Shown in pieces: positions 1,142 to 5,425 of a stretch of 64,000 nucleotides of DNA (the stretch's first letter is position 1; each line of letters starts with the position of its first letter). The notes beneath the pieces are model-generated. The model saw only the letters and a list, made by a program, of their open reading frames with translations, was not told where the DNA came from and made no database searches. Location of the stretch: the NCBI GenBank assembly GCA_964035015.1, contig OZ036004.1, forward strand, positions 13,342,427 to 13,406,426. Direction: 5' to 3'. Position numbers and translations under genes: made by a program. Origin of the DNA: Corallium rubrum. Taxonomy: Eukaryota > Cnidaria > Anthozoa > Scleralcyonacea > Coralliidae.

Positions 1142-1181
1142 TTTCTCCTGACGAAGGGCCTTCGCTCGAAACGTCGAGAAG
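1142..1181 (+). ncRNA. hammerhead ribozyme (PLE variant, minimal stem III), copy 1
   Basis: Core elements in order: stem I 5' strand TTTCTC (1142-1147), CTGACGA (1148-1154), an extra A, stem II GGGC/GCTC with CTTC loop (1156-1167, one G-U pair), GAAA (1168-1171), C, cleavage triplet GTC (1173-1175), stem I 3' strand GAGAAG (1176-1181). Stem I is self-complementary across the motif. Stem III is reduced to AC/GU, as in the PLE-associated hammerhead variants reported to cleave as dimers. Predicted cleavage follows base 1175. It lies directly downstream of a PLE pol remnant on the same strand, as expected for the element's terminal repeat. Confidence 0.72.
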
Positions 1182-1223
1182 ATTTTTCTCTGTTTTTCAG
1201 GCCAACGTGACTTAACCCTCGTA

Positions 1224-1298
1224 ATATATATATATATATATATATATATATATATATATATATATATATATATATATATATATGTGTGTGTGTGTGTG
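1224..1298. repeat. (AT)n then (GT)n microsatellite at PLE end
   Basis: Pure AT dinucleotides run about 1224-1283, then GT. The tract starts directly after the ~40-bp segment that always follows the ribozyme (ending ACTTAACCCT). Confidence 0.95.
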
Positions 1299-1312
1299 TA
1301 TGTATATGTATA

Positions 1313-1425
1313 GGTTATATACGGAGAACGCGGGATGTAAGTCATATATTGACCCGAGGGGCCGACGGTCCCGAGGCCCCTCGGGTCAATATATGACTTA
1401 TATCCCAAGTTCGAGGTATATAACC
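1313..1425. mobile_element. foldback MITE-like palindrome
   Basis: Long inverted repeat: outer GGTTATATAC/GTATATAACC, inner arms reading GGGATGTAAGTCATATATTG and its near-complement, and a GC-rich tip at about 1357-1389. The whole segment would fold into one hairpin. It is typical of a non-autonomous foldback element and encodes nothing. Confidence 0.75.
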
Positions 1426-1433
1426 GACTTCTA

Positions 1434-2493
1434 TCACGATTGAGGAGGTTTTCGACATGGCCAGAAATCGAGGACATTCAGCGGCAGTGGCCTGTGGGCT
1501 CAGATTTAGATGGAAATATTAATTTGAAGATTCTGATGGCTAAATATCGATCATTTCGGCTATAAACAGAAGTCTATAACAACAAATTAAAGTAGAGTTA
1601 TTCCCTAAAATGTCTTATTGAGCCATTTCTTACCCAAATATCAAATTACAAAAGGTTTAATCGTCTAGACAGGCCTGTACACTCACAATATTAAATTGCC
1701 GCAGAAATTTCGGTTATTATTTCTGAATCCACAGTCTATAACAATGTTAAATAATACAGCGGTAAAGACCATGGGAACCCCTAGCAACAGTGCTTTTATA
1801 ATGGCGATCAAGAACCCGAATTGTCGAGCAATGTTTTGCTTCTTCACGCTTTCTTGGCGCTTGATGGATTAAATTGCAACGACTCTGCAGCATGAAAACC
1901 CTATATTTCAAGTCGTTTGGGAACAAGTTTAAATACGTTGCAATGCCTTTAGATGCTGGTCAAAACAAAGTATTGTCCACCTCGAATGCGTCTAGATGTG
2001 GGCCCGTGCGAAAAGTCGAATATATGTTGCCAAATTTGCGTCTAAGAAAACCTCACTTCGGCAAATCTTGTGGATTTAACAGGTGCGTATATACAAGGTA
2101 AGAGGTAGGAATATAAGCTTCTCGGGAACAAATTCAGCCTTCACGGATTGACGCCAGATTTTCAGGAGTTGAAGCTTGCCTAATTTGCTAATCTTTTAGA
2201 TGTGGGCCCGTATGAATTCTTCACGGGATCTAATAGAAAATGCGTATTGTGAATTTTCCCCTATCAAATCTATTGAAAGCCGCCATCTTGAAATTATTTG
2301 GGAAGAGCCAAACGCGCATGCTTGTCAGCCATGTTGTCCTCGATTTCTGGCCATGACAAGGTTTCGTCAATTTCGAAGAGTTTCGATCAAGATTTTTCGA
2401 GTTATATCCACAAGTTTTATCTAATTATTTATTCACGGGATTATAACCTGTATATATCCCGCGGCACATCAAAGAAAATCGACTCAATCGTGA
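1434..2493. mobile_element. candidate TIR element, ~1.06 kb, non-coding
   Basis: Bounded by inverted TCACGATTGAG (1434) and CTCAATCGTGA (ending 2493). A second inverted block, ATGGCCAGAAATCGAGGACA near 1458 against TGTCCTCGATTTCTGGCCAT near 2335, lies inside the ends. The right arm carries about 100 extra bases between the blocks. Both ends are flanked by TA. The interior has only short chance ORFs and a short repeated motif (AGATGTGGGCCCGT near 1993 and 2197). Confidence 0.5.
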
Positions 2494-2527
2494 TATATAT
2501 ATATATATATATATATATATATATATA
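2493..2527. repeat. (AT)n microsatellite
   Basis: AT dinucleotide tract next to the 3' end of the minus-strand PLE. Confidence 0.95.
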
Positions 2528-2562
2528 AAACATCAAAATATATAACTTTATTTCTTGTACAT

Positions 2563-2596
2563 ACGTACGTTTCGGGGCACTGCCCCTTCTTCAAAT
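2563..2596 (-). ncRNA. hammerhead-like motif, second PLE type (relic)
   Basis: On the minus strand: TTGAAGA (CTGAAGA with its C changed), an extra A, stem II GGGGC-AGT-GCCCC, GAAAC and triplet GTA. Layout matches the ribozyme at 1142-1181 but stem II and the flanks differ. It lies about 70 bp past the stop of the minus-strand PLE pol, so it probably belongs to that family's terminal region. The changed first core base and unconvincing stem I suggest this copy is inactive. Confidence 0.55.
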
Positions 2597-2663
2597 CATA
2601 ATATTCGAGTCACAAATTAGAGTTCCTTTATACCTACTGTAAGATTACCATACAATTAAATAT

Positions 2664-4430: not shown

Positions 4431-4498
4431 ATATAAATATATATATATATAAATATTACCAGGGTTAAGTCACGTTGGCCTGAAAAACAGAGAAAAAT

Positions 4499-4538
4499 CT
4501 TCTCGACGTTTCGAGCGAAGGCCCTTCGTCAGGCGAAA
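4499..4538 (-). ncRNA. hammerhead ribozyme motif, copy 2
   Basis: Same core as 1142-1181 (CTGACGA, stem II GGGC/GCTC, GAAAC, GTC, GAGAAG) on the minus strand. The stem I 5' strand is TTTCGC, giving one mismatch against GAGAAG. It is followed by the same tail ending ACTTAACCCT, then A/T sequence. It lies upstream of the minus-strand PLE but is of the other ribozyme type, so it probably marks a separate insertion. Confidence 0.65.
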
Positions 4539-4540
4539 TT

Positions 4541-4718
4541 AGTGTATATATATATATATATATAGTGTATATTTATATATATATATGTATATATATATAT
4601 ATATATATATGTATATATATATATATATATATATATGTATATATATATGTATATGTATATATATATATATATATATATATATATATATATATATATATAT
4701 ATATATATATATATATAT
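4541..4718. repeat. (AT)n/(TATG) microsatellite
   Basis: About 178 bp of AT dinucleotides with scattered TG interruptions. Confidence 0.95.
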
Positions 4719-4829
4719 AAATGATATTGGGCATTTCACTCGATTATATAGCATGTTCTAAGGATTTAGGGTGAAGGAAAATTCGAGTGTAGAATATATA
4801 CATTTTAAGTCCAAACCGAGAGCAGTTGC

Positions 4830-4960
4830 GAAAAATGCAACTACAGGCCTCCGGCAGGAATTGAACCCACGACCTTGCGATTCTAGTGCAATGCTCTGTA
4901 TATACACAGAACTCGCGATCAAGCTCTCGGCAACGGCCTTCGTGGCTCAGTGGTCAGATA
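4830..4960. repeat. tRNA-derived SINE-like fragments
   Basis: On the minus strand, GGTCGTGGGTTCAATTCC (about 4860-4876) looks like a T-arm/B box. It is preceded by an anticodon-arm-like TTGCA-CTAGAAT-CGCAA. On the plus strand, CGTGGCTCAGTGGTCAGA (~4939-4956) looks like an A box that runs into an AT tract. The halves are in opposite orientation, so this is a rearranged tRNA-derived repeat, not a tRNA gene. Confidence 0.5.
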
Positions 4961-5061
4961 TATATATATATAGTTAAAAGCTTCTGGGACAGCGTCGGCC
5001 ACGGTTGAAATCCAAATAATACCAGGGTTAAGTCACGTTGGCCTGAAAAACATAGAAAAAT

Positions 5062-5101
5062 CTTCTCGACGTTTCGAGCGAAGGCCCTTCGTCAGGAATT
5101 T
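5062..5101 (-). ncRNA. hammerhead ribozyme motif, copy 3
   Basis: Same core on the minus strand, abutting copy 4 head to head: the two motifs overlap through a near-palindromic CAGGAATTTCTCCTG. The core is intact but stem I is poorer than in copy 1 because its 5' strand has been altered by the junction. Confidence 0.62.
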
Positions 5102-5138
5102 CTCCTGACGAAGGGCCTTCGCTCGAAACGTCGAGAAG
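5099..5138 (+). ncRNA. hammerhead ribozyme motif, copy 4
   Basis: Identical core and stem I to copy 1 (TTTCTC/GAGAAG; CTGACGA; GGGC/GCTC; GAAAC; GTC). Predicted cleavage falls after base 5132. Confidence 0.7.
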
Positions 5139-5385
5139 ATTTTTCTCTGTTTTTCAGGCCAACGTGACTTAACCCTGGCACTATATATATATATATATAT
5201 ATATATATATATATATATATATATATATATATATATATATATTATATATATTATATATATTAACAGATATACTAAATTTCATTTATTCACGAAAATACAG
5301 AAAATAATGGCTAGTCATGTAAATTATGAAGCATGGATGGAAAGAATATCTAAACGTCTGAAAGACATTCCAAGAACACCAGGAA

Positions 5386-5425
5386 TTTCTCCTGACGAAG
5401 GGCCTTCGCTCGAAACGTCGAGAAG
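5386..5425 (+). ncRNA. hammerhead ribozyme motif, copy 5
   Basis: Identical to copies 1 and 4 through core and stem I. It lies about 150 bp upstream of the start codon of the coiled-coil gene, separated from it by the AT tract. If this region is transcribed it would lie in the 5' leader. Confidence 0.7.

Follow-up and report, generated by a model that had tools for sequence, protein, structure and literature searches.

Penelope-like genes and hammerhead motifs in the window

The window analysed here is a stretch of 64,000 nucleotides from Corallium rubrum (contig OZ036004.1, positions 13,342,427 to 13,406,426), in which five hammerhead ribozyme motifs lie next to genes of Penelope-like elements (PLEs). 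Element A is represented at 3–892 (+) by the 3′ portion of a Penelope-like open reading frame (ORF) with a frameshift, composed of the region that follows the reverse transcriptase (RT) domain (3–524) and of a GIY-YIG domain (440–892), the latter with 17.6 bits, under the cut-off of 22.6. Element B, at 2664–4469 (−), is a 5′-truncated Penelope-like ORF of 601 amino acids, in which Pfam recognised a C-terminal GIY-YIG domain with 33.2 bits, above the cut-off, and RVT_1 with 25.6 bits, below the cut-off of 29.6 (E 1.2e-5); RT and GIY-YIG, the combination by which PLEs are recognised, are present here in one ORF. An earlier note on this DNA had associated the motifs with PLEs, and such genes do lie beside them: the GIY-YIG gene of element A ends 250 nt upstream of the motif at 1142, and the RT and GIY-YIG ORF of element B adjoins the motif at 4499.

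The proteins of the two elements are 36% and 38% identical in two stretches (E 8e-35 and 8e-13), and elements A and B are different families. The element B protein had no match among the PDB sequences, and a protein search of viral contigs with its ORF found no relative. Element B ends in a degenerate hammerhead-like motif of its own at 2567–2594 (−), TTGAAGA-A-GGGGC/GCCCC-GAAACGT, in which C3 is replaced and stem I is absent; the adjoining copy at 4499 is therefore assigned to family A and not to family B. The degenerate motif folds better than most of its shuffles (z −2.17), and an Rfam search on it gave no hammerhead match. In the stretches examined there was no complete copy with the order pseudo-long terminal repeat (pLTR), ORF, pLTR; head-to-head units were found there.

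The five motifs consist of CTGACGA, an extra A, a GGGC/GCTC stem II, GAAAC and GTC. These parts, which the earlier note had described at 1142, 4499 (−), 5062 (−), 5099 and 5386, are present in all five copies, each with the extra A between CTGACGA and stem II. In copy 1 (1142–1181, +) stem I is formed by 1142–1147 and 1176–1181, the core by 1148–1154 and the extra A by 1155, followed by stem II (1156–1159 and 1164–1167), GAAAC (1168–1172) and GTC (1173–1175), with predicted cleavage at 1175^1176. The shared tail begins 3′ of this site (1176–1226, +) and ends in ...TTAACCCT, which may mark the internal start of reverse transcription; (TA)n follows at 1224–1283. Copy 2 (4499–4538) lies in a solo unit at 4454–4543 (−) with TA-rich DNA on both sides. 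Copies 3 (5062–5101) and 4 (5099–5138) belong to the left arm (5024–5097, −) and the right arm (5097–5176, +) of a head-to-head pair, of which the right arm is followed by (TA)n and the left arm has an outer end that lacks a TA array. Copy 5 (5386–5425) belongs to a unit at 5384–5463 (+) that goes back to a tandem duplication.

A six-pair stem I, TTTCTC/GAGAAG, with one G-U pair, is present in copies 1142, 5099 and 5386, as had been claimed; that of copy 4499 has one mismatch, and in copy 5062 three pairs are left. Stem III is nearly missing in all five copies, being reduced to the self-complementary ACGU with a loop of zero length. Positions 1176, 5133 and 5420 proved to be the right predicted cleavage sites for a cut after GTC.

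Chance controls and covariance models

The window contains 12 occurrences of the heptamer CTGACGA, against 3.65 expected, and the full set CTGACGA-A-GGGC-CTTC-GCTC-GAAAC-GTC was found at five of these sites: 1148 (+), 4532 (−), 5095 (−), 5105 (+) and 5392 (+). A looser pattern, CTGANGA..GAAAC, occurs 10 times against 0.51 expected, and the other five occurrences fail the structural descriptor. No match to the descriptor of the diminished hammerhead turned up in 300 random sequences of 64 kb generated from a first-order Markov model. Outside the window, 28 loci matching the core were found in viral and bacterial collections, and 27 of them, including two near-duplicate pairs, were scored as a control set; locus L002 was left out because its gap exceeds the length allowed by the scoring pattern. 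None of the 27 has at least three stem I pairs, and one has at least four stem II pairs. The motif-pattern searches of viral contigs contributed 5, 0, 0, 0 and 7 stretches and the search of genome contigs 16, against about 15 expected by our own estimate; among those scored, none from either source has more than two stem I pairs. A text search of the literature with two motif strings returned no ribozyme paper by title among the matches listed.

The motifs were also compared with the covariance models of Rfam (4227 families), where RF00163 (Hammerhead_1) has a gathering score of 34. Such a check had been proposed in the earlier note, and its outcome was divided. No hammerhead was found at the gathering score (best 16.7 bits), in a search of 4.6 kb (1000–5600) with relaxed settings, or among the 29 matches for 5050–5150, the top ones of which are of microRNA type and were ascribed to the palindrome. 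Searched alone, the copy at 1142 matched RF00163 only (16.7 bits, E 0.066) and the copy at 5099 matched it best (16.7 bits, E 0.06), both with the alignment GAAAC[0]GUC. By our own arithmetic, division of this E-value by the 4227 families gives about 1.6e-5 for a single family and a 76-base stretch. For copy 4499 the hammerhead score was 12.4 bits (E 1.6), and a chance match to a snoRNA ranked above it (E 0.79). These narrow searches covered 1142, 5099 and 4499; the copy at 5386 is identical in its 40 letters to the perfect copies 1142 and 5099.

In terms of class, the core of canonical type I hammerheads, CUGANGA...GAAA...UH, is present in all five copies, which resemble RF00163 in core, stem I and stem II, whereas the canonical ribozyme has a stem III hairpin that all five Corallium rubrum copies lack, and their best score is 16.7 bits against the 34 of the gathering threshold. 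The features of the minimal PLE-type variant, that is the core, stems I and II and a diminished stem III, are complete in three of the five copies. The earlier description of a hammerhead variant whose stem III is almost absent is borne out by the descriptor, the comparison of the repeat units and the RF00163 match of copies 1142 and 5099. Variants of this kind were reportedly described by Lunse, Weinberg and Breaker (RNA Biol 2017) from PLEs, with a diminished stem III, proposed cutting as dimers and some 150,000 examples; they share the diminished stem III and the PLE association with the copies in the window, and no differing feature was seen. On sequence grounds, the five motifs are best classified as a further member of this known PLE-linked kind.

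A minimal hammerhead motif without helix III in PLE terminal repeats was described by Cervera and De la Pena (MBE 2014), according to the review PMC6155905. The copies in the window resemble it in lacking helix III but are for the most part short solo units, inside TA arrays or adjacent to them, and no complete element with both terminal repeats was seen in the stretches examined. PLEs are also named among the RNAs with double-hammerhead structures in PMC6466107.

Short units carrying a hammerhead might instead be non-autonomous retrozymes, in which short tandem repeats with type I hammerheads make circular RNAs, rather than parts of a PLE. Retrozymes of about 170–400 nt are known in animals, one coral among them, as stated in PMC7229834, where the coral A. 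millepora is credited with more than 6000 type I motifs, up to 1508 of them canonical, and the remaining ones are said to resemble minimal PLE and Terminon variants. Animal retrozymes are tandem repeats with a canonical hammerhead, whereas the units in the window are solo copies of about 80–90 nt, apart from one duplication, with a minimal hammerhead in which the hairpin of stem III is missing; in addition, a PLE gene is attached to the longest copy. An origin from retrozymes is thus regarded as highly improbable.

Relationship of the copies and a second family

The five units are copies of one repeat unit, with one variable base over 73 nt (1147–1219). As the repeat unit is near-identical, the copy number is no evidence for the fold and does not amount to five independent tests of it. 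An inverted repeat of 82 nt (96% identity, 5-nt spacer) has the copies at 5062 and 5099 as its arms. The copy at 5386 arose from that at 5099 when 5093–5382 was duplicated in tandem as 5380–5653; the duplicated blocks, 150 nt and 131 nt long, are 100% identical, and CAGGAATTTC is found at both junctions. Tandem duplication is preferred to a large target-site duplication around 5386, because the 5099 copy joins the same (TA)n-TTAACAG sequence. We infer that the copies go back to roughly three insertions (1142, 4499 and the two head-to-head arms together) and one tandem duplication from 5099 to 5386.

Lying within 300 nt of each other, 5099 and 5386 form the only direct-repeat pair in which stem I is intact. 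The proposal that the head-to-head copies 5062 and 5099 could pair in cis as ribozymes had to be given up: owing to their inverted arrangement, each transcript contains one sense and one antisense copy, and it folds as one hairpin (−147.5 kcal/mol).

A second family with units of about 80 nt was found at 46640–46724 (+) and 48805–48882 (+). The two units are 88% alike and share 24 (46640) and 19 (48805) exact nucleotides with the ribozyme of family A, in the case of 46640 despite a diverged tail. Both begin inside the ribozyme, so that the core CUG is missing, and an Rfam search on the 46640 unit gave no match. The 48805 unit is directly preceded on its 5′ side by an inverted 20-nt tail piece of the same family (48785–48804), which matches the 46640 unit at 18 of 20 positions and its own 48805 unit at 17 of 20; when 42,498 other 20-mers of the window were sampled, only five of them matched the 46640 unit equally well. 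With this second junction, head-to-head insertions appear, from the sequence, to be present in two families.

Such pairs may be formed by priming on both target strands, or by snap-back self-priming of one cDNA. By our own reading, a 5-nt loop and priming by a single T:A pair are possible at the 5062/5099 junction, and one study (PMC3846280) proposed self-priming for PLE palindromes and ascribed head-to-head junctions to it; it further describes pLTRs in inverted arrangement, a pLTR with a TATA box and a preference for simple AT-rich targets. In the window, however, the same tail end is found at both outer ends of the 5062/5099 pair and the arms of the case at 48785–48804 are very unequal, and in vitro a PLE protein cuts both strands and extends them (PMC11167929). 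Snap-back is considered a real possibility, at somewhat less than an even chance.

Unit ends and the TATA box

The tails end at ...TTAACCCT in all four independent unit ends. Beyond this end TA-rich DNA is found in three of four units, the exception being 5024, and likewise at the end of element B. On the scale of element A, the 5′ ends of the solo units correspond to 1137, 1140 and 1146, and none of the three coincides with the predicted cleavage position 1176. Since these ends lie upstream of the cleavage site, the templates of the solo units would have been uncut there. The ends lie 32–41 nt past the first base (1105) of a TATAAATA box at 1105–1112 (+), which is located 43 nt upstream of the ribozyme core and may act as a promoter. 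Element B has TATAAAG at 2626–2632 (−), 38 nt before its motif; the chance of TATAAA 36–46 nt upstream of a random position is 0.012.

By eye, the sequence TTTTTCTCTGTTTTTCAG at 1183–1200, just 3′ of the predicted cleavage site, resembles a 3′ splice acceptor, and a weaker counterpart can be seen in the 46640 and 48805 units.

A useful comparison is PAc, the Poseidon element of Anolis carolinensis, for which an internal start of reverse transcription, AT-rich targets and extension of both strands have been reported (PMC11167929). The downstream internal start and the AT-rich targets resemble our reading of the units in the window. The two differ in that the PAc ORF begins at stem II and its reverse transcription starts 111–118 nt into the ORF, whereas the units described here end about 45–50 nt past the cleavage site and there is no ATG in 1137–1226.

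Folding and the proposed copying route

We consider it probable that the five motifs are 5′ leader and tail copies of one PLE family with a minimal type I-like hammerhead, which would work as follows. Transcription of the PLE would start from the TATA box that lies some 32 nt before the unit, which would place the ribozyme at the extreme 5′ end of the promoter-started transcript and again at each unit junction in read-through transcripts. A ribozyme cut after GUC would trim or separate the units, probably only when two copies are joined via ACGU:ACGU or when folding is helped by the protein of the element. Reverse transcription would start inside the RNA, about 45–50 nt past the cleavage site, with TA-rich DNA at this point or next to it. 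A promoter-started transcript, when copied, would yield only the solo units of about 80–90 nt, and a read-through transcript would yield long copies such as element A.

This interpretation draws on the motif and its chance controls, the RF00163 matches of copies 1142 and 5099, the PLE genes adjoining 1142 and 4499, the ribozyme nucleotides shared with the 46640 unit, the common tail ends and the distance of the solo 5′ ends from the TATA box; the naming of PLEs in PMC6466107 and the findings on PAc, whose hammerhead is inactive without protein (PMC11167929), also speak for it. Several results weigh against it. Besides the weakened stem I of two of the five copies (4499 and 5062) and the searches at the gathering score and over 4.6 kb in which Rfam listed no hammerhead, no copy folds clearly better than its shuffles (z −0.46 to −0.59, with 45–60 of 200 shuffles folding equally well). 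The predicted ground state of the monomer pairs the core GACG with CGUC with a probability of about 0.93 and would be inactive; its energy is −13.2 kcal/mol, whereas a hammerhead lacking stem III has −9.2 kcal/mol. The double hammerhead joined by ACGU:ACGU has −17.3 kcal/mol, against −26.4 for two monomers and −33.2 for the unconstrained cofold. The energy models, which in ViennaRNA leave out the tertiary structure of the catalytic core, give spontaneous action as a dimer no support. The promoter idea is based on three 5′ ends, two of them from one insertion, that were chosen post hoc, and the starts of the 46640 and 48805 units inside the ribozyme do not fit it unless these units were further truncated. 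In the PAc system, ribozyme mutants left insertion unaffected in vitro and no reads start or end at the cut site (PMC11167929).

Part of this evidence would also suit a decayed or non-catalytic remnant, a protein-binding hairpin or one at which reverse transcription starts, which has been kept only through the youth of the copies. The whole units are near-identical, flanks included, folding favours the inactive hairpin, the three solo 5′ ends lie upstream of the cleavage site, and ribozyme mutants of PAc left insertion in vitro unaffected. On the other hand, the core bases are kept in all five copies, and family A has 24 ribozyme nucleotides in common with the 46640 unit, whose tail differs from its own. 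The remnant is considered unlikely, and a minimal hammerhead of a PLE is preferred.

A more specific version of the preferred reading can be offered only tentatively, and we regard it as doubtful in its full form. The ribozyme would lie about 5 nt from the start of the PLE transcript and be held in an off state by GACG:CGUC pairing, which the protein or a partner copy would open. The short solo units within and next to TA arrays would then be complete cDNAs of uncut transcripts, reaching from the transcript start to the internal start of reverse transcription, and double-strand priming would join two of them head-to-head.

Other features of the window

A host-like ORF in two frames (one frameshift) extends over 5578–6901 (+), and its first approximately 76 nt lie inside the tandem duplication together with a ribozyme copy. 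Its first part had only coiled-coil matches below the Pfam cut-off and its second part none; the ORF contains the string RNPIAH, which we take to be a HEPN-like motif. There is a near-perfect palindrome, GTCATATATTGACCCGAGGGGCC..., at 1338–1400, possibly part of a DNA transposon, and CACGATTGAG at 1435–1444 recurs as its reverse complement at 2483–2492, possibly also as parts of a DNA transposon.

Farther along, two tRNA-Ser (GGA) genes at 22950–23271 (−) lie within a 250-nt tandem duplication. Two ORFs of LTR-retrotransposon type occupy 27751–31868 (+), the second with RT, RNase H, integrase and a protease below the cut-off, the first with no Pfam match. A segmental duplication links 32331–42733 with 54371–64000, the pieces being mostly 91–95% identical and one repeat-array piece 82%, and 42844–43901 matches 60011–61084 in inverted orientation. 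Very long simple arrays are located at 37008–38158 and 39931–40695, namely (ACAA) × 288 at 100% and GTTTT/GTTTTGC.

Implications for Penelope-like elements

The role of the hammerhead in PLEs is unsettled, and in the in vitro system of PMC11167929 the ribozyme is protein-dependent and dispensable for insertion. What the present locus adds is architecture: a ribozyme that is probably 5′-terminal, solo units that fit uncut templates and head-to-head insertions in what appear to be two families. The layout of the copies hints at the copying route of the element. The 5′ ends of the solo units lie at the predicted start and not at the cut site, and a genome-wide count of such ends could tell cut from uncut PLE templates. 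If the more specific reading given above is true, the solo copies would record the promoter and an unused ribozyme directly in the genome.
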